The position numbers were made by a program, and so were the translations under genes. Below are positions 3,782 through 21,727 of a DNA stretch of 64,000 bases, in pieces; the stretch's first letter is position 1; each line of letters begins with the position of its first letter. The DNA comes from Solirhodobacter olei. Lineage in GTDB: Bacteria; Pseudomonadota; Alphaproteobacteria; Rhodobacterales; Rhodobacteraceae. The stretch spans positions 1-64,000 of the forward strand of contig NZ_RRYH01000010.1 in NCBI RefSeq assembly GCF_004010155.1, given 5' to 3'. Under the pieces are notes generated by a model. The model was not told the DNA's origin. It ran no database searches and worked only from the letters and a program-made list of their open reading frames with translations.

Positions 3782-3899
3782 CGGCCCGAAACAGCGGTGC
3801 GCAGCACCACCGGGCCAGCGGCCGTCCGCCCTCAAGGGCGGGCGCGCCTTGGGCCTCACCGCAAGACCCGTAGGGTGCGCATTCATTGCGCACCCTACG
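3782..3899 (+). repeat. Composite three-hairpin repeat, copy A
   Basis: Part 1 is an outer stem GGCCCG/CGGGCC enclosing an inner stem GGTGC/GCACC (3782-3815). Part 2 is a GCCCG...GGGCGGGC hairpin ending near 3843. Part 3 is a 31-bp element (3869-3899) with 13-bp perfect arms around a TTCAT loop. Copies B (20205) and C (21623) share the order and nearly the same spacing. Part 3 abuts the 3' end of the enoyl-CoA hydratase gene and could act as its terminator or RNA-stabilising hairpin. Confidence 0.8.
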
Positions 3900-3902
3900 G
3901 CC

Positions 3903-4517
3903 TCAGATCATCCGCTTGATCGCCGCCACATGCTCCGCCTTGGCGCCGAGCGCATCGGCCGCCAGCGCCTCCACCTCGGCGTCCAGCGCCGCCTTCGGCA
4001 CCAGCCGGTCGACGAGGCCCCAGCCCAGGGCCTCTTCCATCGTCACCCGCGCGCCAGCCATCAGGATCAGCTTCGCCCGCGCCGGCCCTATCAGCGCCGC
4101 CAGCCGCCCGGGGTCCGAGGGCTGCGGCAGGAACCCCAGCTTCATCACCGGGTAGAAGATCTTCCCGCTCTCCGCCGCTGCCACCCGCAGGTCGGCCGCA
4201 AGCACCATCCCCAGCGCGCCCCCGGCGACAGAGCCGTTAAGCGCCGCCACCGTCAGCCCCGGAAACCCCGCCACGGCGGCCGAGAGCCGTTCCCAGATGG
4301 GATCGGTGGCAAGCCCCGCCCGCGCCTCGTCCAGATCCGCCCCGGCGGAAAAGACGCTGTCGGTCCCGGTCAGCACCAGCACCCGGGCCCCGGCGGCGCG
4401 GGCGGCAGCGACGCCCTCCTCCAGCGCCACCAGCATGGCGCGGGTCAGCGAATTGGCCTTCTCCGGACGCATGATCCGGAGCCGCCAGATGCCATCCCGC
4501 GCCTCGGTGACGATCAT
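3903..4517 (-). CDS. Enoyl-CoA hydratase/isomerase family protein
   Basis: This 204-residue protein belongs to the crotonase superfamily, whose members bind acyl-CoA thioesters and stabilise an enolate in an oxyanion hole. The oxyanion signatures are FSAGADLDEA (near 56-65) and NGSVAGGALGM (near 94-104). It is shorter than typical 255-residue enoyl-CoA hydratases and lacks most of the C-terminal helical region. The usual catalytic glutamates cannot be placed with confidence, so the exact reaction is unknown. Its ATG overlaps the stop of the upstream SDR gene (ATGA, 4514-4517), implying translational coupling. Confidence 0.8.
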   Translation of the reverse strand: MIVTEARDGIWRLRIMRPEKANSLTRAMLVALEEGVAAARAAGARVLVLTGTDSVFSAGADLDEARAGLATDPIWERLSAAVAGFPGLTVAALNGSVAGGALGMVLAADLRVAAAESGKIFYPVMKLGFLPQPSDPGRLAALIGPARAKLILMAGARVTMEEALGWGLVDRLVPKAALDAEVEALAADALGAKAEHVAAIKRMI

Positions 4518-5263
4518 GCCGGCAGGCCCAGCCGGGCGCGAATCGCAGCGTCGCGCAGCTGGATCTCCTGGCCGCGGAAGGCATCGGCATCGGCGGTAAA
4601 CATCCAGACCAGCGCCTTCGCCGGCCAGTCGGCGGGAACATGCGCATTCGGGTCAAGGCGGCTGACCGGGTTGATCCCGCTGGCCTTGATCTTCACCTGC
4701 ATCTCGGTCGCCACCGTTCCCGGCGAAAGCCCCATGACGCGGACGCCGGCAGGCCCGGCCTCGACATGGGCCACGCGGGTCAGCATCGCCGCACCCGCCT
4801 TGGCGGCGCAATAGGCGCTCCACCCCTCCAGCGGGTTGTGCGCGGCGCCCGAGCTGACGGTGATGATCGTGCCGGAATGCCGCGCCATCATCCCCGGCAG
4901 CACCGCGCGCATGCCGTTGAAGACGCCCTTCAGGTTCACGTCGATATTGCGGCCCCAGGCCTCGGCATCGGTCTCTGCAATATGGCCGATCGGGTCGATC
5001 ATGCCGGCGTTGTTGATCAGCACGTCGACCGGGCCGAAGGCCGCCTCGACCGCCTCCAGCGCGGCGGCGACCGCCGCAGGGTCGGCCACGTCGCAGGCCA
5101 CCGCGTGGCCGCCCGTCTCCTCGGCCAGCGCCGCGATCGCGTCCGCGTCGCGCGCCAGAAGCCCGACCTTCGCGCCCTCTGCCGCGAACTCCCGCGCCGC
5201 CGCCGCGCCGATCCCCCGGCTCGCCCCGGTGATCACAACGACCTTGCCTGCCAGTTCCGCCAT
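4514..5263 (-). CDS. SDR family NAD(P)-dependent oxidoreductase
   Basis: A 249-residue classical short-chain dehydrogenase. The start is MAELAGKVVVITG at 5263, because the frame upstream has no domain sequence. The cofactor motif TGASRGIG is near residues 12-19, NNAG near 83-86 and the catalytic YxxxK (YCAAK) near 150-154. It is coupled to the downstream crotonase-fold gene, so the pair may act on the same acyl or keto substrate. The substrate cannot be predicted from sequence. Confidence 0.88.
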   Translation of the reverse strand: MAELAGKVVVITGASRGIGAAAAREFAAEGAKVGLLARDADAIAALAEETGGHAVACDVADPAAVAAALEAVEAAFGPVDVLINNAGMIDPIGHIAETDAEAWGRNIDVNLKGVFNGMRAVLPGMMARHSGTIITVSSGAAHNPLEGWSAYCAAKAGAAMLTRVAHVEAGPAGVRVMGLSPGTVATEMQVKIKASGINPVSRLDPNAHVPADWPAKALVWMFTADADAFRGQEIQLRDAAIRARLGLPA

Positions 5264-5393
5264 AACACCCTCCGTCCTGCTGCTTTCGGGGCCTGTTAGC
5301 CCGTCCCGCGGGCCGAGGGAATCCCTTGACCGGCGCCCCGCCCCGCAAGATGCTGAGGAGAGATCCCTTAATGTATATCCGGAGAGGTTTATT

Positions 5394-6899
5394 ATGAAGT
5401 CTTTGCGCCTGCTCGGCGCGGCCACGGTTGCGGCCGCCCTCCTGTCCGGCAGCGCCGCAGCCGCGCTGACGGCAGATGCCGTATGGTCCGCGCTGCAATC
5501 CCGCATCGAAGCCCAGGGCAGCAAGATCGCCGTCGGATCGAGGTCGAGCGCCGGCGGCACGTTGCAGCTGAAGGACGTGACGCTCACCACGGCCCATGGG
5601 CCGACCACCAGCACGGTCTCGCTGCCCGAGCTCGACCTCGCCGAGGGCGCGGACGGCAAGGTCACCGTCACCGCTGCGCCCGGCGCGACGGTGGCGATTC
5701 ATGCCGCGCCCGAGCCTGGCAAGAAGGGCCAGGACCGCTCCGCCGACGTCACGCTGAAGCTGAGCCAATCCGGGCTGAAGACCGTGGTCTCCGGCACCAC
5801 GGACGACCTGACGCTGCAGAGCAGCGCCGCCAGCGTCGGCCTCGCCATCGGCTCGATCGTCGCAGACGGCAAGCCGGTCGACGCCAAGGGCGGGATCACC
5901 TTCACCGGGATGGAGAGCACGGCGCATATCACCGGCACGGACCCGGCGATCACCGATGCAAGCGGCTCGGTACAGTCGTTCAAGCTCGCGCTCGACGTCG
6001 CAAACCCCGAGAAAAAGGGATCCGCCCATGTCGAGGCGGAGGTCGCAGACCTCAAGGGCACCAGCCATGCCGTGCTCCCGAAGGGCGTCGACATCCAGGC
6101 CGACATGGCCAAGGCGCTGGCGGCGGGCTACAGCCTGTCGAGCGCGCTGACCCACGGGCCCGCCAGCCTCAAGGTCGCCTATGTCTCGCCCAAGGGGCCC
6201 GGCACGATCACCGGAAGCACCGGCACCGGCACGCTCACCGTCGACATGAGCAAGGACCACCTGCGCTACGGCGCGCAGGACAATGACAGCGAGCTGACCC
6301 TGCAGGTGCCCGACCTCCCCCTGCCGGAGGTCAAGATTAGCCAGAAGTCGGGAGAGTTCCAGCTGACCGTGCCGATTGCGAAATCCGACACCCCGCAGGA
6401 CTTCAGCCTGCTGACCCGGATCATCGGCCTCAGCGTGAACAAGGAGGTCTGGGGCCTCTTCGATCCGACCGGCGCACTGCCCCACACCCCCGCGACCCTG
6501 ATCGTCGACCTCGCCGGCCAGGGCAAGCTGGGGATGGACCTGCTCGACCCGAAGCTGGCAGAGCATCCGCCGATGGATCCGGGCCAGTTGCAGTCGCTGA
6601 AGCTGAACCAGCTTCAGCTGACCGCGCTCGGAGCAGAGTTGACCGGCAAGGGCGCCGTCACCTTCGACAACTCCGGCCCGGCGCCGCGCCCCGTGGGCGA
6701 TGTCGAGCTGAAGCTCACCGGCGGCAACGCGCTGATGGAGAAGCTGACGCAGATGGGCCTCCTGCCCGAGAACCAGGCGGCAGGGGTGCGGATGATGCTC
6801 GGCATGTTCACCGAGCCCGCCGGCGACGACGTGCTGAAGACCAAGATCGAGTTCAAGCAGGACGGCGCCATCCTCGCCAACGGCCAGCGCATCCAGTAG
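5394..6899 (+). CDS. DUF2125-type exported protein
   Basis: This 501-residue protein starts MKSLRLLGAATVAAALLSG and has a signal peptide ending near residue 23 (AAA-A). The rest is repetitive beta-strand-rich sequence with many short Gly/Thr/Lys segments. The overall look and the ending (GAILANGQRIQ) match Rhodobacterales DUF2125 proteins. Function is unknown; a periplasmic or outer-membrane location is inferred. The start has a GGAGAGG ribosome-binding site at 5381-5387. It is transcribed alone, and a strong hairpin follows the stop. Confidence 0.8.
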   Translation: MKSLRLLGAATVAAALLSGSAAAALTADAVWSALQSRIEAQGSKIAVGSRSSAGGTLQLKDVTLTTAHGPTTSTVSLPELDLAEGADGKVTVTAAPGATVAIHAAPEPGKKGQDRSADVTLKLSQSGLKTVVSGTTDDLTLQSSAASVGLAIGSIVADGKPVDAKGGITFTGMESTAHITGTDPAITDASGSVQSFKLALDVANPEKKGSAHVEAEVADLKGTSHAVLPKGVDIQADMAKALAAGYSLSSALTHGPASLKVAYVSPKGPGTITGSTGTGTLTVDMSKDHLRYGAQDNDSELTLQVPDLPLPEVKISQKSGEFQLTVPIAKSDTPQDFSLLTRIIGLSVNKEVWGLFDPTGALPHTPATLIVDLAGQGKLGMDLLDPKLAEHPPMDPGQLQSLKLNQLQLTALGAELTGKGAVTFDNSGPAPRPVGDVELKLTGGNALMEKLTQMGLLPENQAAGVRMMLGMFTEPAGDDVLKTKIEFKQDGAILANGQRIQ

Positions 6900-6924
6900 C
6901 GGGTTTGGGCGCAAGGAACAAAAG

Positions 6925-6950
6925 GGCCGCCCCGGGCAACCGGGGCGGCC
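6925..6950. terminator. Hairpin between converging DUF2125 and GNAT genes
   Basis: A perfect 11-bp GC stem (6925-6935 and 6940-6950) closed by a GCAA tetraloop, followed by TTCG on the plus strand and CCC/TTTTG on the other side. It lies between two convergent stops and probably terminates both. Confidence 0.75.
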
Positions 6951-6971
6951 TTCGCCATCTCAGGCCGCATC

Positions 6972-7475
6972 TCAGGCCGCAGCCCCGCCCGTCAGCGCCA
7001 TGCGGAACAGTCCGCCGTCGCGCGCCACCGGCTCGAAACCGCAGGCCCGGTAGACGGTTTGGGCATGCCAGTTCCCGCTCGCCGTGCCGACGGTAAGGAA
7101 GCTGCACCCCGCCGCCCCCGCCCGCGCCGCCGCCGCCCGGATCAGCCGCCGGCCAAGACCCTTTCCGCGCGCCACCGGCGCCACGTAGAGGTGATGCAGG
7201 TCCATCCCCCGCAGCCCGAACTGCAGCTGCGCCCGCGGACAGAGCGCGGCATAGCCCAGTAGCCCGGTCTCCCCCTCCGCCACCAGCACCTGGAGCCAGG
7301 GCGCGGGCCCCAGCACGTCGCGTGCCAGCGCCGCGACATCCGCCCGCGCCGTGTCGCCGTGATGCGCGGCAAGCGCCGCCACCATTGCCGCCAGTGCCGG
7401 CAGGTCCCCCGCCGCCACCGCGCGGATCCGCACGCCAGCCCCCGCGTCGTCTTCAGTTTCGATATCGCCTTCCAT
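6972..7475 (-). CDS. GNAT family N-acetyltransferase
   Basis: A 167-residue acetyl-CoA-dependent acyltransferase. The acetyl-CoA loop is APVARGKGLGRRLI (the R/QxxGxG/A motif, near residues 104-117). It is followed by a conserved NWHAQTVYRACGFEPV segment typical of motif B. The start at 7475 (MEGDIETED) is preferred because it has GGAGAGG about 10 nt upstream. A start at 7532 would lie inside an intrinsic terminator. The substrate is unknown. Upstream lies a candidate leader-peptide attenuator. Confidence 0.83.
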   Translation of the reverse strand: MEGDIETEDDAGAGVRIRAVAAGDLPALAAMVAALAAHHGDTARADVAALARDVLGPAPWLQVLVAEGETGLLGYAALCPRAQLQFGLRGMDLHHLYVAPVARGKGLGRRLIRAAAARAGAAGCSFLTVGTASGNWHAQTVYRACGFEPVARDGGLFRMALTGGAAA

Positions 7476-7510
7476 CTTCCTCTCCATCCTCGGGTTCTGC
7501 CCGCCATGGT

Positions 7511-7539
7511 TCGGAAGAAAAGGCCGCCCCATGGCGGCC
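7511..7539 (-). terminator. Intrinsic terminator upstream of the GNAT gene
   Basis: On the minus strand GGCCGCC-ATGG-GGCGGCC is followed directly by TTTTCTT, a textbook rho-independent terminator. It lies 36 nt before the GNAT start and 29 nt after a small ORF, so it sits in the 5' leader rather than at the end of a gene. CCGCC in its 5' arm (7533-7537) can instead pair with GGCGG (7563-7567). Confidence 0.75.
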
Positions 7540-7568
7540 TTCGATCACATGCGAAAAGACCACCGCCG

Positions 7569-7619
7569 CTATCTGCGACGGCCGTAAAAGAGCCCGGTGG
7601 TCTGCTGCATCGTGGTCAT
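7569..7619 (-). CDS. Putative 16-residue leader peptide
   Basis: The ORF reads MTTMQQTTGLFYGRRR and then TAG. It is preceded by AAGGAT 7 nt upstream, which could be either a ribosome-binding site or the -10 hexamer of a promoter whose start point would be at or next to the ATG. Codons 6-9 form one arm of a hairpin (7595-7602 with 7558-7565), and the stop lies just before the other arm. No single amino acid is strongly repeated except three arginines at the end. I do not recognise it; it may instead be part of a small RNA. Confidence 0.45.
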   Translation of the reverse strand: MTTMQQTTGLFYGRRR

Positions 7620-7626
7620 GGCGGCG

Positions 7627-7662
7627 ATCCTTCGGGCAATCGGGCGCGCTGTCAAGCGCGCC
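7627..7662 (-). promoter_or_regulatory. Promoter and overlapping palindrome for the small leader ORF
   Basis: On the minus strand TTGACA (7650-7655) is followed after 17 nt by AAGGAT (7627-7632). A perfect 8-4-8 palindrome (GGCGCGCT 7643-7650, AGCGCGCC 7655-7662) overlaps the -35 hexamer and could be an operator. The start point should be near 7620, essentially at the ATG of the 16-codon ORF. Confidence 0.5.
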
Positions 7663-7813
7663 GCGCCCTCGCTCCCCTGCCCTCCTCGCCCTCGAAAGCG
7701 CCCGCGGGCGGGTCAGCGCCCCATCCACCCCTCGCGCAGGATTGCCCCATCGGTGCTTGCAGTCCGGGCCCGGCCCCACTAGGTCCGAATGGTCCGAACC
7801 GAAAGGCCTGGCC

Positions 7814-9160
7814 ATGCCCGATACGCTTGAATCCCTTGCCCATGCGCTGCTCGAGGCAGCCACGAAGGCAGGCGCCGATGCCGCCGACGCGCTCGCCGTC
7901 GAGGGCCGCTCGATCTCGGTCGAAACCCGGGCGGGCAAGCTCGAACAGGCCGAACGCTCCGAGGGCGTTGACATCGGCCTGCGGGTGCTGATCGGCCAGC
8001 GCCAGGCCTGCGTCTCCGCCTCCGACACGCGGGCCGAGACCATGGCCGCAATGGCCGAACGCGCCGTCGCAATGGCGCGCGAGGCGCCGGAGGATCCCAA
8101 CATCGGCCTCGCCGACCCGTCCGAGATCGCGCGGGACTGGGATCTCGCCGCGCTCGACCTCGCCGACCCGGCCGCCGAGCCCGCCGCCGCCGCGCTGGAG
8201 GAAGACGCGCTCCGCGCCGAGGCCGCCGCCCGCGCGGTGAAGGGCGTGAGCCAGGTCGACGGGGCGGGTGCCGGCTATGGGCGAAGCGCGCTGCACATCG
8301 CGCTGTCGAACGGCTTTTCGGGCGGGTTCGCGCAGACCTCCCGCTCGCTCTCCTGCGTCGCGATCACTGGCACCGGCACGGGGATGGAGCGGGACTGGTA
8401 CGCCGACGCCCGCACCTACCAGGCCGACCTGATGGATGCAGAAGAGATCGGCCGCCGCGCCGGCGAGCGCGCGGTTTCCCGCGCCGGGGCCCGGAAGCCC
8501 AAGACCGGCGCCTATCCCGTCGTCTATGACGAGCGTGTGGCCGGCTCGCTGATCGGCCACCTGATCGGTGCGATCAACGGCAGCGCCATCGCCCGCGGCT
8601 CCTCCTGGCTGCGCGACGCCCTGGGCGAACAGGTGCTCCCCACCGGCCTGACACTGACCGAGGATCCGCACCGCCCCCGCGTCAGCGGCTCCCGCCCCTT
8701 CGATGCCGAGGGCCTGCCGACCCACGCCCGCAGGATCGTCGATGCCGGCGTGCTGACCGGCTGGACGCTCGACCTCGCCACCGCCCGCAAGCTCGGCCTC
8801 AAGAGCACCGCGAACGCCAGCCGCTCCACCTCTGCCCCGCCCTCGCCCGGGACCTCGAACCTCCTCCTCACCCAGGGGACGCAGACCCAGGCGGAGCTGC
8901 TGGCCGAGATGGGCACGGGGCTTCTGATCACCTCGCTCATGGGCTCCTCGATCAACCCGACGACGGGGGACTATTCGCGCGGCGCCTCCGGTTTCTGGGT
9001 CGAGAAGGGCGAGATTGCCTACCCTGTCAACGAATGCACCGTCGCCGGAAACCTGCGGGACATGCTTAAGACGCTGACCCCGGCCAATGACGGTCGCGAC
9101 TGGCTGTCTCTCGTCTGCCCGTCGCTCCGCGTCGAGGGGCTGACCCTTGCCGGAGAGTGA
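7814..9160 (+). CDS. pmbA: PmbA/TldE family metalloprotease subunit
   Basis: This 448-residue protein of the TldD/TldE (PmbA) family forms the non-catalytic partner in a zinc protease that, in enterobacteria, cleaves microcin B17 and the CcdA antitoxin. The family pattern is complete: N-terminal VETRAGKLEQAERSE, central YPVVYDERVAGSLIGHL, and C-terminal NPTTGDYSRGASGFWVEKGE. No HExxH is seen, which fits TldE rather than TldD. No tldD lies in the window. The gene overlaps cysQ by 14 nt. Confidence 0.93.
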   Translation: MPDTLESLAHALLEAATKAGADAADALAVEGRSISVETRAGKLEQAERSEGVDIGLRVLIGQRQACVSASDTRAETMAAMAERAVAMAREAPEDPNIGLADPSEIARDWDLAALDLADPAAEPAAAALEEDALRAEAAARAVKGVSQVDGAGAGYGRSALHIALSNGFSGGFAQTSRSLSCVAITGTGTGMERDWYADARTYQADLMDAEEIGRRAGERAVSRAGARKPKTGAYPVVYDERVAGSLIGHLIGAINGSAIARGSSWLRDALGEQVLPTGLTLTEDPHRPRVSGSRPFDAEGLPTHARRIVDAGVLTGWTLDLATARKLGLKSTANASRSTSAPPSPGTSNLLLTQGTQTQAELLAEMGTGLLITSLMGSSINPTTGDYSRGASGFWVEKGEIAYPVNECTVAGNLRDMLKTLTPANDGRDWLSLVCPSLRVEGLTLAGE

Positions 9161-9926
9161 CCTCCAGCTCCTGACCCGCGCCGCGCGCGAGGCGGGCCAG
9201 ATCGCCATGGCCCATTGGCGGCATTCGCCGGAGGTCTGGCAGAAGCCCGACGGCGCCGGCCCCGTCACCACCGCGGATATCGAGGCCGACCGCCTGATCG
9301 CTACCGTCCTGCGCTCCGCCCGCCCCGACTACGGCTGGCTTTCCGAGGAAACGGAGGACACCAAGGCCCGGCTCGATACCAAGCGCATCTTCATCGTCGA
9401 CCCGATCGACGGCACGCGGGCCTTCATCCAGGGCGAGGCGGGCTTCGCCCATTCCATCGCGGTCGCCGAAGCCGGCGAGATCACCGCCGCCGTGGTCTTC
9501 CTTCCCGCGCTGGAGCTTCTCTACACCGCCTCCATCGACACCCCGGCAGAGCTGAACGGCGCGCCCCTGACCCCTTCGGCCGTGCATCGGGCCGAGGGCG
9601 CAAGCGTGCTGACCAGCGGCGGCGCACTGGCGGCAGAAAACTGGCCCGGCGGCGTGCCGGACCTGAAGCGCGCCTTCCGGCCGTCGCTCGCCTGGCGGCT
9701 CTGCCTCGTGGCGGAGGGTCAGCACGACGGCCTCGTCACCTTCCGCGACACCTGGGAATGGGACATTGCCGCCGGCGCGCTGATCTGCGCCCGCGCGGGG
9801 GTGACGGTGACCGACGGCACCGGCCAGCCCTTGCGTTTCAACCGGGACTCGCCGCTCGGCCCCGGTGTTCTGGCCGCGCCGCCCGCGCTTCACGCCGATC
9901 TGCTGTCCCGCCGCCTCGGCCACTGA
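9147..9926 (+). CDS. cysQ: 3'(2'),5'-bisphosphate nucleotidase / inositol monophosphatase family
   Basis: A 259-residue Mg-dependent phosphatase. The metal-binding motifs are SEET (near 67-70), DPIDGTRAFI (near 86-95) and WEWDIAAG (near 201-208). CysQ clears the sulfate-assimilation by-product 3'-phosphoadenosine 5'-phosphate. The start appears to be TTG at 9147, with GAGGGG seven bases upstream; the next in-frame ATG at 9207 would remove the first helix. It overlaps pmbA by 14 nt. An inositol monophosphatase activity cannot be excluded. Confidence 0.88.
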   Translation: MPESDLQLLTRAAREAGQIAMAHWRHSPEVWQKPDGAGPVTTADIEADRLIATVLRSARPDYGWLSEETEDTKARLDTKRIFIVDPIDGTRAFIQGEAGFAHSIAVAEAGEITAAVVFLPALELLYTASIDTPAELNGAPLTPSAVHRAEGASVLTSGGALAAENWPGGVPDLKRAFRPSLAWRLCLVAEGQHDGLVTFRDTWEWDIAAGALICARAGVTVTDGTGQPLRFNRDSPLGPGVLAAPPALHADLLSRRLGH

Positions 9927-10001
9927 CACGCGCGACCAGCCCCACGCCCAGCACCGTCCCCCGCGCGCTCCGCAAGCCCCCACGCCCCTGCCGCCCTCGT
10001 C

Positions 10002-10029
10002 TTGACCCGGGGCCGCTTTTGGCTAGGGT
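10002..10029 (+). promoter_or_regulatory. Promoter for the DUF4170-waaA-lpxK operon
   Basis: TTGACC (10002-10007), 16 nt, TAGGGT (10024-10029), with the ATG 30 nt downstream. The same TTGACC-16-TARGGT layout occurs before the epimerase gene at 37234-37261, which supports it as a native promoter type. Confidence 0.55.
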
Positions 10030-10058
10030 CGCGGCCAGATCCCCCAAGGAGCAGAACA

Positions 10059-10304
10059 ATGGCCCAGCGTCTCCATCTCGTCTTCGGCGGCGAACTCGCC
10101 GACCCGTCCAAGAACGTCTTCAAGGACGTCTCGCAGATCCACATCGTCGGCATGTTCCCCGATTACCAGAGCGCCCATGCCGCCTGGAAAGCCGAGGCCC
10201 AGCGGACCGTGGACGACGCCCACATGCGCTACTTCATCGCCCATATCCACCGGCTGCGGGACGAGGAACAGGCCGCCGGCCCGACCGAGGAACTCGGGGC
10301 CTGA
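10059..10304 (+). CDS. DUF4170 family small protein
   Basis: An 81-residue acidic protein starting MAQRLHLVFGGELADPS, with no signal peptide or membrane segment. Rhodobacterales members of DUF4170 commonly sit directly before waaA (kdtA), as here, only 11 nt upstream of waaA. The function is unknown; a role in lipid A/Kdo synthesis is inferred from position alone. AAGGAGCAG at 10046-10054 gives a strong ribosome-binding site. Confidence 0.8.
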   Translation: MAQRLHLVFGGELADPSKNVFKDVSQIHIVGMFPDYQSAHAAWKAEAQRTVDDAHMRYFIAHIHRLRDEEQAAGPTEELGA

Positions 10305-10315
10305 CCCCGACCACC

Positions 10316-11527
10316 ATGCCGCGCCCGGCAGGCCTTTCGCTCTACCTCGCGCTGACCGCCCGGCGCCGGCGCGCCGCGCGGGCCGAGGACGCGGAGCCGG
10401 CCCGTCCGCGCGGGCCGCTGATCTGGCTGCACGTGCCGCGGGCCGAGGGGCTTTCGGCAGCGATGGAGCTGGTCCGCCGCCTGTCCGAGGAACGCGCGCG
10501 GCTGACGATCCTGCTCACCTGCCCCGCCGATCCGCCCGCCCTGCCGCGGCGCGTGCTCCACCGCCCGCCCCCGGTCGAGGATCCGGCCCGGCTCGCCGCC
10601 TTCCTCACCCACTGGCAGCCCGAGGCGATCGCCCAGGTTGGCGGCCCGCTTTCGCCGGTGCTGCTCGCCGGCGCCGGGGCGCAGCGGCCCTTTCACCTGA
10701 TCCAGCCAGACCTGCCCGCGCCGATGCTGCTGCGGCTGATCCCCGGCCTTTCGCGCGGGTTGATGGGGCCCCTGGCGCGCATCCTCGCCCCCCATGCCCA
10801 GGACGCCCGCCGCCTGCGCCGCCTCGCCGGCCCCGGCGCCGCGATCGAGACGCTGGCGCCGCTGGAGCCGGTGCCGGAGGCGCTCCCCTGCAACGACGCC
10901 GAGCGCGAGGCGATGACAGCCCAGCTCGCCGCCCGCCCGATCTGGCTCGTCGCCGGCCTGCCGGAGGCGGAGCTGCCCGCCGTCATCACCGCCCATCGCG
11001 CCGCGCTCCGGCTGGCGCACCGGCTGCTGCTGATCGTGGTGCCCGAGAACCCCGCCGACGGCCCCCGTTTCGCAAGGGCGCTGGCGGAACCCGAAGGCTG
11101 GCTGACCGCCCTGCGCTCCATCGACGAGGAGCTGGGCGAGGAGACCCAGGTCTACGTCGCCGATACCGAGGGGGAGATGGGCCTCTGGTACCGCCTCGCG
11201 CCGATGAGCTTCCTTGGCGGCAGCCTTGCCGGGACGGGCAGCCTGCGCTCGCCCTACGAACCGGCCGCGCTCGGCTCCGCCATCCTGCATGGCCCCCGGC
11301 ACGGCGGGCACGACCCGGCCTTCGCGCTGCTCGCCCGGGCGCACGCCACGCGCGAGGTTCGCTCCGCCGCCGAACTGGGCGAGGCGGTGGGCGATCTTCT
11401 CGCCGCCGACCGCGCCGCGGCGCTGGCGCATGACGCCTGGGCCGCAACCACGGCCGGGGCAGAGGTGACGGACCGCGTTGCCCGGCTCCTCCTTGGCGCG
11501 GTGGAGCCGCCGAAGGACGCGCAATGA
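10316..11527 (+). CDS. waaA: 3-deoxy-D-manno-octulosonate (Kdo) transferase
   Basis: A 403-residue GT30-type glycosyltransferase that adds Kdo to the lipid A precursor at the inner membrane. The C-terminal nucleotide-sugar part is recognisable: [18 protein letters not shown] and [22 protein letters not shown] are WaaA signatures. The N-terminal acceptor domain is diverged: the usual WxHAxSxGE motif reads [13 protein letters not shown], so the catalytic glutamate is probably the E of AEG. It is coupled by a 4-nt overlap to lpxK, the next enzyme class in the same pathway. Confidence 0.88.
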
Positions 11528-12525: not shown

Positions 12526-12613
12526 GGCCGCACCCGCCGCGGGGGACGACCGGGACCGGGTGCATCGGAAACGCCGCGCAACGTCATCAGGTCAGGGAAA
12601 GGTCCCCCGCCTC

Positions 12614-13064: not shown

Positions 13065-13094
13065 CCGGGTCAGCATTTGACCCGGTCATTGACC
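13065..13094. promoter_or_regulatory. Clustered GGTCA/TGACC palindromes between hspQ and the SLT lipoprotein gene
   Basis: A perfect palindrome with arms CCGGGTCA (13065-13072) and TGACCCGG (13078-13085) directly adjoins a second inverted pair GGTCA (13084-13088) and TGACC (13090-13094). Four half-sites in 27 bp between divergent genes look like a regulator-binding site rather than a terminator. Confidence 0.5.
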
Positions 13095-13182
13095 AAGAAT
13101 TCGCCCCACGTCCGCGACGCGGGCATTCCCTTGCCACCTCATTTTCGTTATTCTTAACACAAAATAAGAATGTGAGAGGCAG

Positions 13183-13761: not shown

Positions 13762-13807
13762 GGGCCCGCCGCAGCCTTCCTCCTTCGCCAACCCGCCGGG
13801 CGCGGCG

Positions 13808-14425
13808 CTAGCGGCCCAGCCGCTTCTGCGTCTCGGCGCGGATGTCGAACAGGCTGTCGGGCAGCGTCATCCCGGTCTTCAGCGCCGAAAGCTGCACCTC
13901 GGTCCGCCCGCCGGAGGCATCGGTGATGATCCAGCCCTTCAGCGTGATCGGATCGGCAGCGAAGTAGAGCGCGATCTGCCCGTCGTCGGGATGCGCCGGA
14001 TCCTGCGCCACCACCTCGGTCAGCCCCCCCGGCGTCTCGCGATGCGACACGACCATCTTCGCCTCCCCCAGGTCGATCCGCGGCGCCAGGATCAGCGCCA
14101 GCGGCGTGCGGCCCAGCGGGTACTGCTCCGGCGGCTGGTTCGACTTCGGATCGAAGACCGCAACCGATCCCGCCCCCGCGATTACCAGCGCCTTGTTCGG
14201 CGGGTCGTACTGGAAACGCATCCGGTAGGGCCGGTGGATGAACAGCTCGCCGTTGGAGACGGTCCCGTCGGAATTCTTCTGGGCGAAGGTCGCCTTGGCG
14301 GTGTCGAGCGCGTTGAGATAGGCCGAAATCGCAGGCAGCGGGATCTCGGCGGCGCCTGCCGCGGCGGGGCTTGCCAGCAGGGCGCAAAACAGGGCCACGG
14401 CACAGGCACGAAGGGAACGGAGCAT
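13808..14425 (-). CDS. lolA: Outer-membrane lipoprotein carrier protein LolA
   Basis: LolA (205 residues) ferries lipoproteins across the periplasm from LolCDE to the outer membrane. A signal peptide ends at about ASPAAAGA-AE. The mature part has the beta-barrel pattern with NGELFIHRPYRMRFQYD, characteristic of the family. The start at 14425 is preferred to an ATG at 14431, because GAGG lies 8 nt from it instead of 2. It follows ftsK in the same direction, an arrangement common in Alphaproteobacteria. Confidence 0.9.
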   Translation of the reverse strand: MLRSLRACAVALFCALLASPAAAGAAEIPLPAISAYLNALDTAKATFAQKNSDGTVSNGELFIHRPYRMRFQYDPPNKALVIAGAGSVAVFDPKSNQPPEQYPLGRTPLALILAPRIDLGEAKMVVSHRETPGGLTEVVAQDPAHPDDGQIALYFAADPITLKGWIITDASGGRTEVQLSALKTGMTLPDSLFDIRAETQKRLGR

Positions 14426-14520
14426 GGTCATGGCCTCGATCTAGGGGCGGGGGCGGTCACAATCCATCCCCCACCGGTCACGGCCTGCGGAACACGCGGC
14501 TGGATGGGCGGCGATCCGCC

Positions 14521-17475
14521 CTATTGCTCCGGCACCAGGATCTCGCGCTTACCGACATGGTTCGCCGGCGTCACCAGCCCCTGTTCCTCCATCTGCTCGA
14601 CCAGGCGCGCGGCCTTGTTGTAGCCGATGCCCAGCTTGCGCTGGATGTAGGAGGTGGAGCACTTGCGGTCCTTCAGAACCACCTGCACCGCCTGATCGTA
14701 AAGCGCATCCTCGCCGTCGGTGTTGCCGCCGAGGCCGAGAACCAGGTCGATGTCGTCGGCCTTGTCGTCCTCCGGCCCGTCGACCACGCCCGACATGTAT
14801 TCCGGCGGGCCGAAGCTCTTCAGATGGGTCACGATCTCCTCGACCTCCTCGTCAGAAACGAAGGGGCCGTGGATCCGGGTGATCCGCGCGCCGCCGGCCA
14901 TGTAGAGCATGTCGCCCATGCCGAGAAGCTGCTCGGCCCCCTGCTCGCCAAGGATGGTGCGGCTGTCGATCTTCGACGTCACCTGGAACGAGATCCGGGT
15001 GGGGAAGTTCGCCTTGATCGTGCCGGTGATGACGTCGACAGAGGGCCGCTGCGTCGCCATGATCAGGTGGATGCCCGAGGCCCGCGCCATCTGCGCCAGC
15101 CGCTGGATGCAGGCCTCGATCTCCTTGCCGGCGACCATCATCAGATCGGCCATCTCGTCGACGATGACGACGATATAGGGGATCGACTTCGGCTCGAACT
15201 CCTCGGTCTCGAACACCGGATCGCCCGTATCCTCGTCAAACCCCGTCTGGATCGTGCGCTTGAACATCTCGCCCTTGGCCAGCGCCTCGCGTACGCGGCC
15301 GTTGAAGCCCTCGATGTTGCGCACGCCCATCTTGGACATCTTGCGATAGCGTTCCTCCATCTCGCCGACGACCCATTTCAGGGCCACGACCGCCTTCTTC
15401 GGATCGGTCACGACGGGGGAGAGGAGATGCGGGATACCGTCATAGACGGAAAGCTCCAGCATCTTCGGGTCGATCATGATCAGCCGGCATTCCTCGGGCG
15501 AAAGCTTGTAGAGGAGGCTGAGGATCATGGTGTTGATGGCGACCGACTTGCCCGAGCCGGTGGTACCGGCAATCAGCAGGTGGGGCATCTTGGCGAGGTT
15601 GGCGACGACCGGATCGCCGCCGATGTCCTTGCCGAGCGCCAGCGGCAGCTTCATATGGCTGTCGCCGAAGTCGCGCGCGGCGAGGATCTCGCGCAGCACC
15701 ACCTTCTCGCGGCTGGCGTTCGGCAGTTCGATCCCGATGACCGAGCGGCCCGGCACGGTCGAGACCCGCGCCGACAGCGCCGACATCGAACGGGCGATGT
15801 CATCGGCCAGCCCGATCACGCGGCTGGCCTTCAGCCCCGGTGCCGGTTCCAGCTCGTATTGGGTAACGACCGGGCCCGGGCGGACCGAGACGATCTCGCC
15901 CTTCACGCCGTAGTCGTCCAGCACGCTTTCCAGCATCCGCGCGTTTTCCTCCAGCGCCTCCTGGGAAAGGTAGTGGCGGGTCACGTCGGCGGGGTTGGTC
16001 AGAAGGTTGAGCGGCGGCGCCTCGTACGCGATCCCCTCCGGCGCATCGAAGCGCAGCGCGGGCTGGGCCTCGGCGCGGGCCTGGCGCGAAGGCTGGGCGG
16101 GCTTGGCCGCCGGGGCCTGCACAACACGCCGGGGCTCGGCCTGGGAGGGCAGGAAGCGCGGCGTCTCCTCATAGTCCGGATCAACGTCGTAGGGGTCGAG
16201 CGGCTCGAGCATCTCGTCGGCCGGTTCCTCGGCGAAAAGCGTCGGCTGGGCGGGCGCCTCGCCCGCGGTCACCCGCGGCTGCGGCGGCAGGCCGGTGCCG
16301 GGCCCGCCCCGGCCCATCACGGGCGGCTCCATCCGCGCGGCGGCGGCGGCCGGCGCAGGCGACAGGACGAGCGGCTTCGGTCCGCGGAAGCGCGGCGCGG
16401 TCGGCTCGACCGGCGCCGGGGCCGGGCGGCCGCGGGCGCTGATCGCATGAGCGATGCGGGCGCGGATGCGGTCCTCGCTCGGCGCATCGGACCATTCGTC
16501 CTCGGCGAAGGTCGGCGCCACCTGCTCCGGCTCCGGCGCCGGGCGGCGCTTGAGCGGCGACATGCGGCTGAGGAACGAACCGCGCGCGGGCTGCGGCGCC
16601 GGCGCGGGGGCCGGGGCGGCGGCATAGGCCGGGGCCTCCGCCATCGGCACGGCATGGCGGCGCGCGATCAGCGGCTCGGGCCGGCCATAGCCGTCCTCCT
16701 CGCCACGTCCCAGCGCCGCGTCCATCATCTCGGCCTCGCGCCGCGCGGCCTGCCGGTCGCGGATCGCCGCGGCGGCCTTGACCGAGCCCACCGCCCCGGC
16801 CTGGGCCGCGCGATAGGACCCCGCGGCGCCGTGGCGGGTCATCCGCAGGATCATGTCATAGGTCCGGATCGTGCCGACCAGCAGGAACCGCCCCACCACG
16901 CCCAGTTCCGCCAGATCGAAGCCCAGAACGAAAAGGCTCATGCCGATGAACCCCGCGCCGACCAGGACGGACAGCAGCTTCAGCGACAGCCCCACGCCGA
17001 AGGGCAGCATCCCGATCAGCGTGCCAAGCACGGTGTCGCCGAACAGCCCGCCAAGGCCGAAGGCATGGCCCCAGTCCGCCGCCGGCGTATAGGTCGAGGC
17101 GAAGATCGAGGTCAGCGCCACCGCGATCGGCGCGAAGATCACCCGGTTCATCGCCCGGTCCTCGCCGCGATGGGTGACCAGCCGCGCGCCCCAGGTCAGC
17201 AGCGCCACCGGCACACCCCAGGCACCCATCCCCGCGATGACGACAAGCGGCGAGGCGACGGTGGCGCCCAGCGTGCCCAGAAGGTTCTTCGTCGGCGCAT
17301 GTGTGTCCGACATCCAGCCCGGATCGCCCGGCGCGTAGGACCCGAGCAGGATCACCGCCAGCACCCCGAGCGCCAGCAGCGCGAGGCCGATCAGCTCCTT
17401 GCCGCGCCGTTCCAGCAATGCCTGGGTGTCCTGATCCAGAAGCGGATCGCGCTGCCTCATCTGATAGGATGCCAT
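14521..17475 (-). CDS. ftsK: DNA translocase FtsK
   Basis: A 984-residue septal DNA pump that helps resolve chromosome dimers and clear DNA from the closing septum. An N-terminal domain with four or five membrane segments (about 25-200) is followed by a long Pro/Ala/Arg-rich linker (about 230-480). The RecA-like motor has Walker A GTTGSGKS and Walker [14 protein letters not shown]-terminal winged-helix gamma domain ends in [17 protein letters not shown]. The start MASYQMRQ at 17475 has AGGACGAGG upstream. Confidence 0.97.
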
Positions 17476-17489
17476 GCCGTGCCTCGTCC

Positions 17490-18668
17490 TCACTTGTATA
17501 GACAGTCGCGAAGCTGGATCAGCCCGCGGCGCATCTCGTCTCTCGGGGCGACCATTGCGACGCGAATGTAGCCCCGCCCCGGATTGCCCCCCTCGACCTC
17601 GCGGCCGAGATAGGCCCCCGGCAGCACCCTGACCCCGGTCTGACGCCAGAGCTTCAGGGCCGCCTGTTCCCCATCTTCCACCGGCAGCCAGAGGAAAAAG
17701 CCCCCCTCCGGCGCCTGGTAGGCCTGAAGACCGCCGAAGACCTCGTCGGCGATCCGGTATTTTTCCTGGTAGAGCGCGCGGTTCTCCACCACATGCGCCT
17801 CGTCGGACCAGACCCGCTCCGCCACCCGCTGCAACGGCAGCGGCAGCGGCGCTCCGGCATAGGCCCGAAGCTGCCGGATCCGCGCCATGCCGCGCGGGCC
17901 GCCGGCCACGAAGCCCGAGCGCAGCCCCGGCAGGTTCGACCGCTTGGAAAGCGAGTGGAACACATAGACGCGCTCCGGATTCGCGCCGATCTCGGCCGCG
18001 ACCTCAAGCGCGCCGGTCGGCGGCGCATCGCGGTAGATCTCGGAATAGCATTCATCGGCGAAGATGATGAAATCGTGCTTTTCCGCCAGCCCGATCAGCT
18101 CGGCGAGGTATTCCTTCGAGGCCACGGCCCCCTGCGGGTTCGAGGGCGAGCAGAGATAGGCCACCGCCACCCGGTCCAGCACCTCGGCAGGCAGCCCGGC
18201 ATAATCCGGCAGGAACCCGGTCGCCGCCGTCGCGGGCACGAAGACCGGCTCGGCATCGATCGCGATCGCGGCCACGGCGTAGACCTGGTAGAACGGGTTC
18301 GGCACGAGGACGAGCGGCCGCCGCCCGGCCTTCGCTTCCGGGCAGAGCGCGATGAGCGCGCCGAAAAGGCCCTCGCGCGTGCCGTTCAGCGCCATGATGC
18401 CCTCGGCCGGAACATCGGCCCCGAAGCGCCGCTTCACCCAGGCCGAGATCGCCGCCAGCAGCTCCGGCGTGCCGTCGTTTGGCGGGTACTTGCCGAAGCC
18501 ACCAAGGTTCGCCGCCAGGACCTCGCCCACGAAGCCCGGCGGGGCATGCTGCGGCTCGCCGATCGTCATCGCAATAGCCGGCCCGCCCGGCTCGTGATGA
18601 TCGAGCAGGCTCCGCAGACGCGGAAACGCGTATTCTGGCAGGTTCGAAAACCGCTCTGGAAAGTTCAT
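17490..18668 (-). CDS. Class I/II aminotransferase (DapC-like)
   Basis: A 392-residue PLP enzyme of fold type I. The PLP lysine is in [14 protein letters not shown] (near 230-243), and the substrate-carboxylate arginine region GYIRVAM is near the end. It resembles the aminotransferase often called succinyldiaminopimelate transaminase in Alphaproteobacteria, but the substrate is not certain. It is the first gene of an aminotransferase-ftsK-lolA operon, ending 15 nt before ftsK. The leader contains a tandem GTGTCGCCCC-type 10-bp repeat around 18690-18709. Confidence 0.85.
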
Positions 18669-18764
18669 ATCTGCCTCAAACCGGGATCGTGTCGCCCCGT
18701 GTCGCCCGAACGATACCGTCCGATCCGGCCCGCGTCCAGAAAGGGCTTTGCCTTCCGCCGCTTG

Positions 18765-20123
18765 TCAGGCGAAATTGTGGCTTTTCCGCCGGATACCCAG
18801 CGCAGCCTCGGCCGCAAGCCCCGTCCGCAGCAGGCTCTCCTCGCCCATCGGCGCCCCCATGAGCATGATCCCGGTCGAGGGGATTCCCGTCGGCAGGGTC
18901 AGCGCGGGAAGCCCCATGAGGTTCGCCACGCGCGTGTTGCGCAGCGTCAGCAGGTTCTCCGTCGTATAATGCTCCGCGTCCGTCAGAAGCCGGGCGGCCT
19001 TTGGCGGCAGGATCGCGCAGCTCGGCGCCAGGACGGCATCATATCCCGCCACCCGCGTGGCCCAGATGCGGCGCAGCGCGCGCAGCCGCCGCCACGCGGC
19101 GATGTGATCGGCGGCAGAGACGCTTGCGCCCCCTTCGAACCGCTCACGGATACGGTCGAACATCTTCTCCGGTGCCGCCCGGATCACGTCCCGCCAGATC
19201 GCCCAGGCCTCCGGCCCGAAGGTCGCCCCGGCAAACCCCATCGCCTCGTCGAGCTCCGGCACCGCGACCCTCTCGATCACCGCGCCCGCCTCGGCAAAGG
19301 CAGCGAGGGCCCGTTCGAACCCCTGCCGCGGCGCCTCGCGCAGATCGTCCAGCACCACGTTCTCCAGCACCATCAACCGCGCGCCCTTCAGGCTCGCACC
19401 CCCCAGATCGGCCGGCTTTGTGCCCTCCAGCACGGCCAGCAGCAGCCCCGCATCCTCGACCGAGCGGCAGAGCGGCCCGACCGTGTCGAAACTCTCCACC
19501 AGCGGCACGACACCGGCCGAGGAGACCCGGCCATGCGTCGTCTTCAGCCCGACGAGATCGTTCCAGGCCGAGGGCACCCGCACCGATCCCCCGGTGTCCG
19601 ACCCGATCCCCGCCGGCGCCAGCCCGAAGGCCACCGAGGCCGCGGCGCCCGAGGAAGATCCCCCCGGCACCGCCTCGGCATCGTTCACGCAGGGCGGCGT
19701 CGCGGTCACGGGGTTGAGGCCGAGGCCGGAGAAGGCGAGCTCCGACATGTGCGTCTTGCCAAGACAGACCAGACCCGCCGCCGTGGCATTGCGAAGCACC
19801 TCCGCATCCGTCCCCGGCACCCGGCCCGCGAGCAGCGCCGAGCCCGCCTCCGTCGCGACGCCGGCGGTGTCGAAAAGGTCCTTCCAGCTGACCGGCACGC
19901 CGTCCAGAAGCCCGCGCCGCAGCCCGGCCTTCGCGCGCTCCGCCGCTGCGCTGGCCTCGGCCAGCGCCCGGTCCTCGGTCAGGCGGGCATAGATTCGGTC
20001 GCCCAGATCATGGGAACGGATCGCCTGCAGATAGGCCTCGGTCAGCGCCACAGGGTCGATCGCCCCGGCACCGATCCCGCGCCCCAGATCCGCCGCCGTC
20101 ATCCACAGCCAATCCGCCGACAT
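18765..20123 (-). CDS. Amidase (amidase-signature family)
   Basis: A 452-residue hydrolase of the GatA/amidase family. The Ser-cisSer-Lys triad is present: Lys in GVPVSWKDLFD, cis-Ser in PGGSSSGAAAS and the nucleophile in GSDTGGSVRVP. It is not GatA, since there are no gatB or gatC neighbours and the C-terminus is short. The start MSADWLWMTAADLG at 20123 has GGGAGG upstream. The substrate is unknown; it could be an amide, a carbamate or a ureido compound. Confidence 0.88.
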   Translation of the reverse strand: MSADWLWMTAADLGRGIGAGAIDPVALTEAYLQAIRSHDLGDRIYARLTEDRALAEASAAAERAKAGLRRGLLDGVPVSWKDLFDTAGVATEAGSALLAGRVPGTDAEVLRNATAAGLVCLGKTHMSELAFSGLGLNPVTATPPCVNDAEAVPGGSSSGAAASVAFGLAPAGIGSDTGGSVRVPSAWNDLVGLKTTHGRVSSAGVVPLVESFDTVGPLCRSVEDAGLLLAVLEGTKPADLGGASLKGARLMVLENVVLDDLREAPRQGFERALAAFAEAGAVIERVAVPELDEAMGFAGATFGPEAWAIWRDVIRAAPEKMFDRIRERFEGGASVSAADHIAAWRRLRALRRIWATRVAGYDAVLAPSCAILPPKAARLLTDAEHYTTENLLTLRNTRVANLMGLPALTLPTGIPSTGIMLMGAPMGEESLLRTGLAAEAALGIRRKSHNFA

Positions 20124-20204
20124 GCCCGCCTCCCGTTTCCGCCTGCCCCCTCTGCCTAAAGCGCAATCGCGGTAGGGGGAATAGGAGAAAAGCCACCGCC
20201 CCTT

Positions 20205-20315
20205 CGGCCCGAAACAGCGGGGCGCGAGCCCCGCCGGGCCAGCGCCCGTCCGCCCCCCCAAGGGCGGGCGCTTCTGCCCCTCCTCTCCGCGCAGGGTGCG
20301 CATTCATTGCGCACC
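20205..20315 (+). repeat. Composite three-hairpin repeat, copy B
   Basis: Same order as copy A. The outer stem GGCCCG/CGGGCC encloses inner stem CGGGGC/GCCCCG with a GCGA loop (20205-20240). A GCCCG...GGGCGGGC hairpin ends at 20269. The terminal unit GGTGCGCA-TTCAT-TGCGCACC spans 20295-20315. It lies between divergent genes, so it is not simply a terminator. Confidence 0.8.
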
Positions 20316-20349
20316 GGCCCTCCGACACCCCCCTGCCCAAACCGACGCA

Positions 20350-20377
20350 TGGACAATCCCGCGCAACTGCCCATATT
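20350..20377 (+). promoter_or_regulatory. Promoter positioned for a leaderless ubiH-like transcript
   Basis: TGGACA (20350-20355), 16 nt, CATATT (20372-20377), then 7 nt to the ATG at 20385. The predicted start point coincides with the ATG, which would explain the lack of any ribosome-binding site there. Confidence 0.45.
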
Positions 20378-20384
20378 GCCCCCC

Positions 20385-21611
20385 ATGACAACGGACTGCG
20401 ACGTGATCATCCTCGGCGGCGGCCTCAACGGCCCGCCCCTCGCCCTGGCCCTCGCCCAGGCCGGGCTCTCCGTCACGGTCATCGACGCCCTGCCCCAGGC
20501 GATCCGCGCCGACGACGCCTTCGACGGCCGCGCCTACGCGCTGGCGCTCGCCTCGCAGCGCCTTCTTGCCGCCGTGGGCGTCTGGCCCGCCGTCGCCGCC
20601 AAGGCCCAGCCCATCCTCGGCGTCCGCGCCTCCGACGGGCGGGTGGGCGAAGGGCCCTCGCCCTTCTTCCTCGACTTCGCAAATGGCGAGCTGGAGGAAG
20701 GCCCGATGGGCTTCATGCTGGAGGACCGCCACCTGCGGCAGGCCTTCCTCGCCGCGATGGGGACGACCCCGGGCATCACCCAGATCTCCGGCGATACCGT
20801 GGTCGCGCAGGAGACCGGCCCCGGCGGCATCACCGTGACGCTCGCCTCCGGCCGGACCCTTTCCGCCCGGCTCCTCGCCGGCTGTGACGGCCGCGCCTCC
20901 GGCACTGCGCGGCGCGCCGGCATCTCGCGCAGCGGCTGGGGCTACGGCCAGACCGCGCTGGTCTGCGCCATCGCGCATGAGAAACCGCACGAGGGCATCG
21001 CCCAGCAGTTCTTCACCCCCGCTGGCCCCCTCGCCATCCTGCCGCTGACCGGCAACCGCTCCGCCATCGTCTGGTCGGAGCGGGAGGAAACGGCGAGGGC
21101 GATCCAGGCGCTCGACGACGAGGGCTACCTCGCCGCGCTCCGCGAGCGGGTCGGCGACTACCTCGGCACGCTGCGCCTCGAGGGTAAGCGCTTCACCTAC
21201 CCGCTGAACCTGACGCTGGCCAACAGTTTCGTGGCCGAGCGCGTCGCGCTCGTGGGCGACGCGGCGCATGGCGTCCACCCGATCGCCGGGCAGGGGCTGA
21301 ACCTCGGGCTGCGCGACGTAGGGGCCCTGGCAGAGGTCGTCATCGAGGCCCAGCGCATCGGCGAGGATATCGGCGCGCTCGACGTGCTGGAGCGCTACCA
21401 GCGCTGGCGGCGGTTCGACTCGACGGCGCTGGCACTCGGGATGGATACGGTCAACCGGCTGTTCTCGAACGACAACCCGCTGCTGCGCGCCGCGCGGGAC
21501 ATCGGCATGGGAACGGTTAATGCCTTCCCGGGCCTGCGCCGCCGCTTCATCCGGGAGGCCGCCGGCCTGACCGGGGACCTCCCCAAGCTCCTGCAAGGCC
21601 GCGCGATCTGA
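20385..21611 (+). CDS. UbiH/UbiF/VisC-type FAD-dependent hydroxylase
   Basis: A 408-residue flavoprotein monooxygenase of the ubiquinone-hydroxylase family. The dinucleotide motif is GGGLNGPPLALALAQAG (near 9-25), and the FAD ribityl motif is VGDAAHGVHPIAGQGLNLGL (near 285-304). These enzymes hydroxylate the ubiquinone ring. Which position this one modifies cannot be read from sequence. Neither the ATG at 20385 nor one at 20349 has a Shine-Dalgarno. The first is chosen because it begins just before the FAD motif and sits at the predicted transcription start. Confidence 0.87.
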   Translation: MTTDCDVIILGGGLNGPPLALALAQAGLSVTVIDALPQAIRADDAFDGRAYALALASQRLLAAVGVWPAVAAKAQPILGVRASDGRVGEGPSPFFLDFANGELEEGPMGFMLEDRHLRQAFLAAMGTTPGITQISGDTVVAQETGPGGITVTLASGRTLSARLLAGCDGRASGTARRAGISRSGWGYGQTALVCAIAHEKPHEGIAQQFFTPAGPLAILPLTGNRSAIVWSEREETARAIQALDDEGYLAALRERVGDYLGTLRLEGKRFTYPLNLTLANSFVAERVALVGDAAHGVHPIAGQGLNLGLRDVGALAEVVIEAQRIGEDIGALDVLERYQRWRRFDSTALALGMDTVNRLFSNDNPLLRAARDIGMGTVNAFPGLRRRFIREAAGLTGDLPKLLQGRAI

Positions 21612-21622
21612 CACCCCTCCCC

Positions 21623-21727
21623 CGGCCCGAAACAGCGTCGCGCAGCGACGCCGGGCCTGCGCCCGTCCGCTCCGAAGGGCGGGCACCGGCTCTCCTCCCC
21701 ACGTAGGGTGCGCATTCATTGCGCACC
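21623..21727 (+). repeat. Composite three-hairpin repeat, copy C
   Basis: The outer stem GGCCCG/CGGGCC encloses inner stem CGTCGC/GCGACG with a GCA loop. The second hairpin ends at 21684, and the terminal unit GGTGCGCA-TTCAT-TGCGCACC spans 21707-21727 with GTAG before it. It lies between convergent stops (21611 and 21742). The inner stem differs from copies A and B on both sides in a pairing-preserving way. Confidence 0.8.

Follow-up and report, generated by a model that had tools for sequence, protein, structure and literature searches.

Enterobacterial repetitive intergenic consensus (ERIC) and BOX sequences are multicopy intergenic repeats of ~100–200 nt, imperfectly palindromic or modular, of which internally deleted forms occur. 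Repetitive extragenic palindromes (REPs) of the GTAG and CGTC types are dispersed hairpin repeats that carry a short unpaired tag at one of their ends and lie in convergent or co-directional gaps near gene 3′ ends (PMC3733652). The ends of IS200/IS605 elements, and of REPs mobilized by REP-associated tyrosine transposases (RAYTs), have subterminal hairpins and are set by base interactions with an internal guide adjoining the hairpin (PMC6006769). Here we describe a repeat of ~166 nt that resembles each of these in some respects. It was encountered in Solirhodobacter olei (Rhodobacteraceae), in the first 64,000 nt of contig NZ_RRYH01000010.1 (the window), where a sequence-only reading had proposed a composite intergenic repeat in three copies. 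The element is multicopy and intergenic, is present in many Rhodobacteraceae, and folds with compensated stems, among them a long-range helix and helices that compete with each other. On balance we read it as mobile DNA.

The whole genome was searched (4.78 Mb in 122 contigs). Sites related to GGCCCGAAACAGCG by no more than one mismatch number 96, compared with 7 for the reversed pattern, and 56 are exact (our own count); at three mismatches the 14-mer gives 20 matches in the window where 17.0 are expected, which is not above chance. A covariance model of the 5′ part of the element (termed R1), built from 35 sequences of which five come from plasmids, gives 110 matches at E ≤ 0.1 and 88 at E ≤ 0.001 (150 candidates scored), one pair among the 110 being the same place on both strands. 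Distinct full-length copies, with R1, the middle motif and the 3′ arm, number 51 among the 109 matches; both the search motif and R1 favour copies with an intact 5′ part. The sequence-only reading had named an absence of further copies in the genome as a finding that would tell against it, and the covariance model search gives ~110.

Starting at the 5′ end, a pyrimidine tag is followed by arm A (e.g. GGCCCG), the inner hairpin, arm A′ (CGGGCC), arm a1 and its local partner a′1. The strand then continues as the 3′ part, with a variable middle carrying a conserved ATAAA, arm a2, arm a′2 (the distal partner of a1) and a tail A″, which like A matches A′. In the full element P1 and the variable inner stem form a 5′ hairpin, and P2, a long-range stem, encloses the middle. 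Positions −4 to −1 are pyrimidine in 83–92% of 108 copies here and in 97–100% of 30 Frigidibacter copies. C(GNA)G inner loops are found in 157 of 248 distinct copies. Among 25 copies bearing the middle motif, 22 align over 172 columns with a mean identity of 83%; three with inserts in hairpin 2 (L016, L044 and L064) were excluded from this alignment. At loci L016, L050, L051 and L054 the loop of hairpin 2 is replaced by a block of ~50 nt containing two small hairpins and ATCGGCACGCC, and long hairpin 2 loops also occur in the Sulfitobacter loci L244, L250, L275 and L290.

The stems change on both sides together. In an alignment of 107 rows (A4, 83 distinct) there are 204 both-sided changes, compared with 50.4 ± 5.0 in shuffled alignments (reached in 0 of 500) and at most 53 in controls with slid partners, while a second alignment of 68 rows (A3, 63 distinct) gives 97 compared with 28.5 ± 3.5. 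Three stems show covariation between genera (P1, the inner stem and local hairpin 2); because the rows are related and the alignments were fitted to the model, we regard this as strong support rather than as a formal probability. A third alignment (A2), mostly from one genome, has 22 both-sided cells compared with 5.2 after shuffling, and is a weak control in which neither the number of pairs so changed (3; 188/500 shuffles) nor that of pair types (11; 346/500) is above the shuffles. RNAalifold finds compensated changes in 4 of 33 pairs among the 22 copies from this genome, with a small covariation term (−0.23), and a tree of copies for counting independent stem changes is uninformative, with 2 of its 48 inner branches well supported. 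The earlier suggestion that structure rather than sequence is conserved is borne out, the fold being kept while the letters change. The other finding named as telling against it, inner arms that change without compensation, applies to a minority; on reading the 51 full-length copies, 8 have changed on one arm only, of which 2 still form G.T pairs.

One column of hairpin 2 is unpaired in 44 of the 83 distinct A4 rows, and pairs instead with the distal 3′ module, as P2. At least 11 of the 13 a1–a′2 pairs are present in 160 of 191 copies, compared with 3.3% after shuffling of the downstream region and 43% when the a1 of one copy is tested on a second copy whose own a1 differs. Within the 160 copies this column is TA in 57, AT in 83, GC in 5, CG in 9 and another combination in 6. 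The 3′ tail in turn tracks the 3′ arm of P1, with at least four Watson–Crick pairs in 134 of 160 copies, compared with 7% after shuffling the tails and 49% when the tail is taken from another copy whose P1 3′ arm differs (arm and tail are, for example, CCGGGC–GCCC, CGGGCC–GGCCC, CGCGCG–CGCGCG and CGGGCG–CGCCCG). Both P2 and the tail pairing covary strongly. Since the tail and arm A match the same arm, the P1 3′ arm has two conserved, mutually exclusive partners. Each appears in a predicted RNA fold: P1 is formed in the best fold of locus L046 (z = −4.75 relative to shuffles), and the tail pairing is formed with P1 open in that of L029 (z = −5.63).

A compensated fold with two competing helices, predicted RNA folds stabler than shuffles and an ATAAA conserved in the middle speak for the main rival to mobile DNA. 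The element could be a structured RNA, in a 3′ untranslated region (UTR) or as a small RNA, in which A′ would switch between P1 and an extended P2 with a role in mRNA processing, stability or protein binding for which it is retained; we think this possible, though rather unlikely. Selection on RNA of the element strand is expected to give an excess of G.T over A.C. P1 is the one stem for which this test is usable (the inner stem counts include a pair missing in some subtypes), and has 19 G.T and 12 A.C, no clear wobble excess (p = 0.28), which counts against an RNA; the P2 counts (86 A.C and 14 G.T) are biased because copies were picked by their 5′ arm. Yoshizawa and co-workers reportedly observed in 1997 that GNA triloops give unusually stable mini-hairpins in DNA (as referenced in PMC7432603). 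Related passages on such loops are found in PMC10527192. Neither the GNA loops nor the P1 wobble counts decide between DNA and RNA. Rfam gives no match at or above the gathering score in the window, and none to the element in 11 loci with full copies, a further point against a structured RNA. A ribozyme resemblance, based on hammerhead-like letters, was dropped; Rfam lends it no support and the letters are not common across genera.

The copies in the window comprise the following features.

3779–3782, + strand: pyrimidine tag CCCC directly 5′ of copy A, corresponding to positions −4 to −1 of the profile.
3783–3846, + strand: copy A, with P1, inner stem and hairpin 2, and without the middle and 3′ module (R1 score 71.7 bits).
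3783–3788 with 3811–3816, + strand: P1 of copy A, GGCCCG paired with CGGGCC.
3796–3800 with 3804–3808, + strand: inner stem of copy A, GGTGC paired with GCACC.
20206–20272, + strand: copy B, with P1, inner stem CGGGGC/GCCCCG and hairpin 2, in a divergent gap (68.5 bits).
21624–21687, + strand: copy C, with P1, inner stem CGTCGC/GCGACG and hairpin 2, in a convergent gap (78.1 bits).

Copies A, B and C each derive from the ~166 nt element by internal deletion, which has removed or reduced the long-range stem, the middle with its ATAAA and the 3′ module. They had been placed at 3782, 20205 and 21623; the copies are there, with GGCCCG beginning one base later in each. The outer stem GGCCCG/CGGGCC enclosing an inner stem is present in all three, the inner arms are as first described and all fold locally, with a single C.A mismatch at the base of the inner stem of copy A. 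We agree also on the gene contexts (a 3′ flank for copy A, and the gaps listed above for B and C).

The third unit of the proposed composite is a 21 bp palindrome, GGTGCGCATTCATTGCGCACC. It occurs in the window at 3874, 20295 and 21707, and alone at 58408 and 61358 (0.01 expected by chance), within these features.

3870–3898, + strand: GTAG-tagged palindrome of REP type adjoining copy A, here with CTAC also at the 3′ end.
20295–20315, + strand: palindrome of the GTAG REP family adjoining copy B, here tagged GCAG.
21703–21727, + strand: GTAG-tagged palindrome adjoining copy C.
58408–58428, + strand: palindrome with no element match listed near it.
61354–61378, + strand: GTAG-tagged palindrome with no element match listed near it.

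Genome-wide the palindrome is present at 78 places, compared with none for the reversed control. Among 56 typed copies (13 further sites with other loops being set aside) GTAG is found on the 5′ side of 42 and CTAC on the 3′ side of 1. It is a high-copy palindrome within the 20–40 bp range, with GTAG at one end, and fits the GTAG REP type as described in PMC3733652. With its tag it is found 66 times here; 15 of 292 genomes of the order have the tagged pattern, compared with 72 of 292 for the element, and it was not found in a Frigidibacter and a Roseovarius genome that have 62 element matches each. Of 108 scorable element copies, 54 have a palindrome no more than 300 bp away; it is downstream of 36 and upstream of 20, and 29 of the 36 downstream palindromes are in the TTCAT orientation. 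We therefore rejected a single composite with units in fixed order; the palindrome is an independent GTAG-tagged REP-type repeat, whose association with the element is local and common. The spacing from unit 1 to unit 3, given as 87, 87 and 80 bp, is 91, 89 and 83 bp from first base to first base, a different anchor.

At E ≤ 0.001, R1 matches 72 of 292 genomes of the order (this one included) and 48 of 112 genera; these are lower bounds because the scan used strict filters and scored no more than 18 candidates per genome. In a class-wide draw of 240 genomes, that included this genome and at least two of its family, only this genome matched. A fuller search of the Frigidibacter and the Roseovarius genome gave the 62 matches apiece (E ≤ 0.01). 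An exact-pattern scan of named genomes gives at least 107 stretches, and of 80 loci listed, 77 are from Rhodobacterales by record name, 2 from unplaced alphaproteobacterial bins and 1 from an Actinomycetales bin. Matching plasmid records come from Pseudosulfitobacter, Leisingera, Paroceanicella and Sulfitobacter, together with one Diaphorobacter record; phage records contain no element matches. An exact match outside Rhodobacterales (L303, contig WGLX01000014.1 of Actinomycetales bin RI_321) is likely to be a binning error. The Roseovarius genome holds two subtypes of the element with different P1 and P2 arms.

Tandem copies exist, mostly 200–275 bp apart. Such arrays, with the high copy number and the occurrence on both strands, would suit a binding site for a host chromosomal protein, with copies retained for that purpose, and REP and bacterial interspersed mosaic element (BIME) sequences do bind gyrase or IHF. 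The presence of the element in 72 of 292 genomes, in very unequal numbers under the filters of that scan, argues to the contrary; no housekeeping role is evident from so patchy an occurrence, and we regard this explanation as very improbable.

We recognized no description of the element in the literature on repeats and RNAs of these bacteria, as judged from titles and the starts of abstracts, so that an earlier one is possible. It is not described in the available parts of small-RNA papers on P. denitrificans and R. pomeroyi (PMC5107571 and PMC4809877), of structured-RNA surveys (PMC2864571 and PMC8632094), or of a stem-loop survey (PMC2267715) that does not mention Rhodobacter there.

Placement was determined using a home-made gene caller trained on the window. 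Of the 110 matches in this genome, 48 lie in convergent gaps, 22 between co-directional genes on the same strand as the copy, 25 between co-directional genes on the opposite strand, 6 in divergent gaps and 5 inside called open reading frames (ORFs), with 4 unusable. Among gaps of 100 bp or more the window itself has 19, namely 12 co-directional, 4 divergent and 3 convergent, which gives the copies a convergent excess (48 of 101 placed copies compared with 3 of 19 gaps, p = 0.011). In Roseovarius (33 matches) 18 are convergent, 8 same-strand and 2 opposite-strand, with 1 inside an ORF and 4 at an edge; in Frigidibacter (30 matches) the corresponding numbers are 6, 12 and 7, with 4 divergent and 1 at an edge. 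The copies thus concentrate near gene 3′ ends. In a convergent gap the strand of a copy is uninformative. In the co-directional gaps of the three genomes 42 copies have the strand of the genes and 34 the opposite strand, which is not a significant preference (p = 0.42).

These data bear on two of the rivals. Closeness to gene 3′ ends suits a structured RNA, as do five plasmid loci, examined over their whole length, in which the 5′ neighbour is co-directional; the lack of a significant strand preference does not. A strictly same-strand 3′ UTR element, suggested by upstream stop codons together with those five loci, was rejected on the even division of the co-directional gaps here (22 and 25). 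REPs show a similar closeness to gene 3′ ends (PMC3733652, section 15). The convergent excess could alternatively reflect strong hairpins that terminate transcription in both directions, having spread by recombination or mobility and persisted in convergent gaps because they insulate the genes on either side. This we consider quite unlikely: about half of the placed copies lie in co-directional gaps in either orientation, and an ordinary-looking terminator is already present, by eye, upstream of L038, L049, L053 and L126. Nor does the element have the form of an intrinsic terminator, a G+C-rich hairpin followed by a T-run, as there is no T-run in the 22 positions after a′2 of 160 copies (T peaks at 54% at one position). 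The earlier view that a plain terminator role does not fit all sites is upheld.

The element was also sought at orthologous sites in congeners. The genes flanking copy B are kept in six congeners with 73–82% identity, and the element is absent from this site in all six; the gap between the matched parts is 28–99 bp, or they overlap, compared with 169–264 bp here. Locus L170 contains two further copies whose neighbours are conserved in congeners, and R1 has no match even at E ≤ 0.5 in the 25 congener loci of the two tests. Failure to be kept at the tested sites is a further point against a structured RNA. The L046 copy (G000:C47, near 354305) sits at a synteny break: in five of the six congeners its flanking genes lie far from each other or on separate contigs, and in the genome G294 both right-hand pieces are on one contig with no left match listed. 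The downstream gene of site C differs in the congeners, so this site, like L046, is unusable as an empty-site test. One congener genome, G191, has 8 element copies elsewhere. Its contigs C73, C75, C86, C87, C91 and C92 hold two or three tandem copies ~200 bp apart, and several G191 contigs start at an element copy.

The Pfam family Y1_Tnp is represented in this genome by one gene, a 139-aa ORF (L035, 1462–1881, minus strand; G000:C41 near 107198–107545), which we take to be IS200-like. Neither the element nor the palindrome is present in the 7 kb around it, so that the cognate RAYT often, though not universally, found near REPs is not seen beside the palindrome. Y1_Tnp is found in 3 of 15 element-rich genomes, and a RAYT-driven REP was rejected as an explanation of the ~166 nt element on its absence from the other 12.

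We think it somewhat probable that the element is mobile DNA, or was so until recently: a non-autonomous repeat of Rhodobacteraceae with ends that are read in the form of single-stranded hairpins. The ~110 dispersed copies here and the 62 matches in each of two other genomes are consistent with this, as are the compensated fold with P2 and the match of tail to A′, the two predicted conformers, the balanced strands in co-directional gaps, the absence at the tested congener sites, the tandem copies, the mostly GNA loops and the REP-like placement. We infer that the hairpins would form on exposure of the strand, as in replication. Because A and A″ both match the single internal arm A′, an enzyme that transfers strands, provided in trans, could be offered the two ends one after the other. 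Insertions would survive near gene 3′ ends, away from promoters, and slippage between short arm repeats may give truncated forms like those in the window. It is unlikely, if conceivable, that the element represents a new, hairpin-defined class of mobile DNA that is confined to Rhodobacteraceae, in which A′ pairs with both ends in turn so that one guide sets both cut sites, and which is moved by a non-Y1 enzyme not yet recognized.

Several observations weigh against mobile DNA. No mobilizing enzyme was found; Y1_Tnp, the sole transposase family searched for, is lacking in most of the element-rich genomes. At the empty sites the congener flanks, at 73–82% identity, are too diverged for an exact junction or target-site duplication to be defined, and the element may be missing there because it was lost or diverged, not because it was inserted here. 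The 5′ part of the Frigidibacter copies is far more uniform than the middle, unlike the expectation for simple recent transposition of a whole unit, although these copies were partly chosen for high 5′ scores. Lastly, the Roseovarius copies lean to the strand of the genes (8 compared with 2).

Other repeated sequences adjoin the element at some loci. A common stretch like CTTCTTGGCCCRAATACTC, by eye another intergenic repeat, lies directly upstream at L008, L013, L018, L040 and L059, and a repeated stretch resembling ATACGGTNC..TTACGGTGC..AAAGCGGTGCC lies downstream at L012, L021, L024, L028 and L047. In Roseovarius (L111–L120 and L209–L228) other shared sequence flanks the element, approximately GCCCATTGCGGACATTGC before and GCTTTGTCCGCAA after it.

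The element is frequent in a well-studied marine and soil family, and Rfam has no entry that matches it. With ~110, 62 and 62 copies or matches in single genomes, it lets selection on fold be told apart from selection on sequence within one genome. It also raises two testable questions, namely what moves or maintains repeats in genomes where a Y1 transposase is not found, and whether one arm pairing with both ends marks the ends of an element.

Compared with known systems, the element resembles ERIC and BOX in size, copy number, intergenic location and deleted forms; these belong to other lineages and are not known to have competing arms like A, A′ and A″. Miniature inverted-repeat transposable elements have terminal inverted repeats, whereas here, without a formal search, the arms at the two ends (A and A″) are direct copies of one short sequence, whose complement A′ is internal. 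SAM/SAH and HRC-8-4 are, like the element, order-restricted structured motifs found by comparative genomics, but are tied to particular neighbouring genes (PMC2864571 and PMC8632094), whereas the element is dispersed at many unrelated sites per genome. It shares with REPs and BIMEs the intergenic 3′-end placement, and with the CGTC-type REPs of alphaproteobacteria the want of a dedicated transposase. REPs are simple tagged hairpins of 20–40 bp (PMC3733652), whereas the element, of ~166 nt, is branched, is tagged by pyrimidines and has a long-range stem as well as a tail competing for the P1 arm; a Y1 HUH transposase accompanies the element in 3 of 15 element-rich genomes and in that of the window. 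IS200/IS605 elements and RAYT-mobilized REPs use such a transposase, and their guides are tetranucleotides (PMC6006769), whereas the element has an arm of 5–7 nt that matches both ends.

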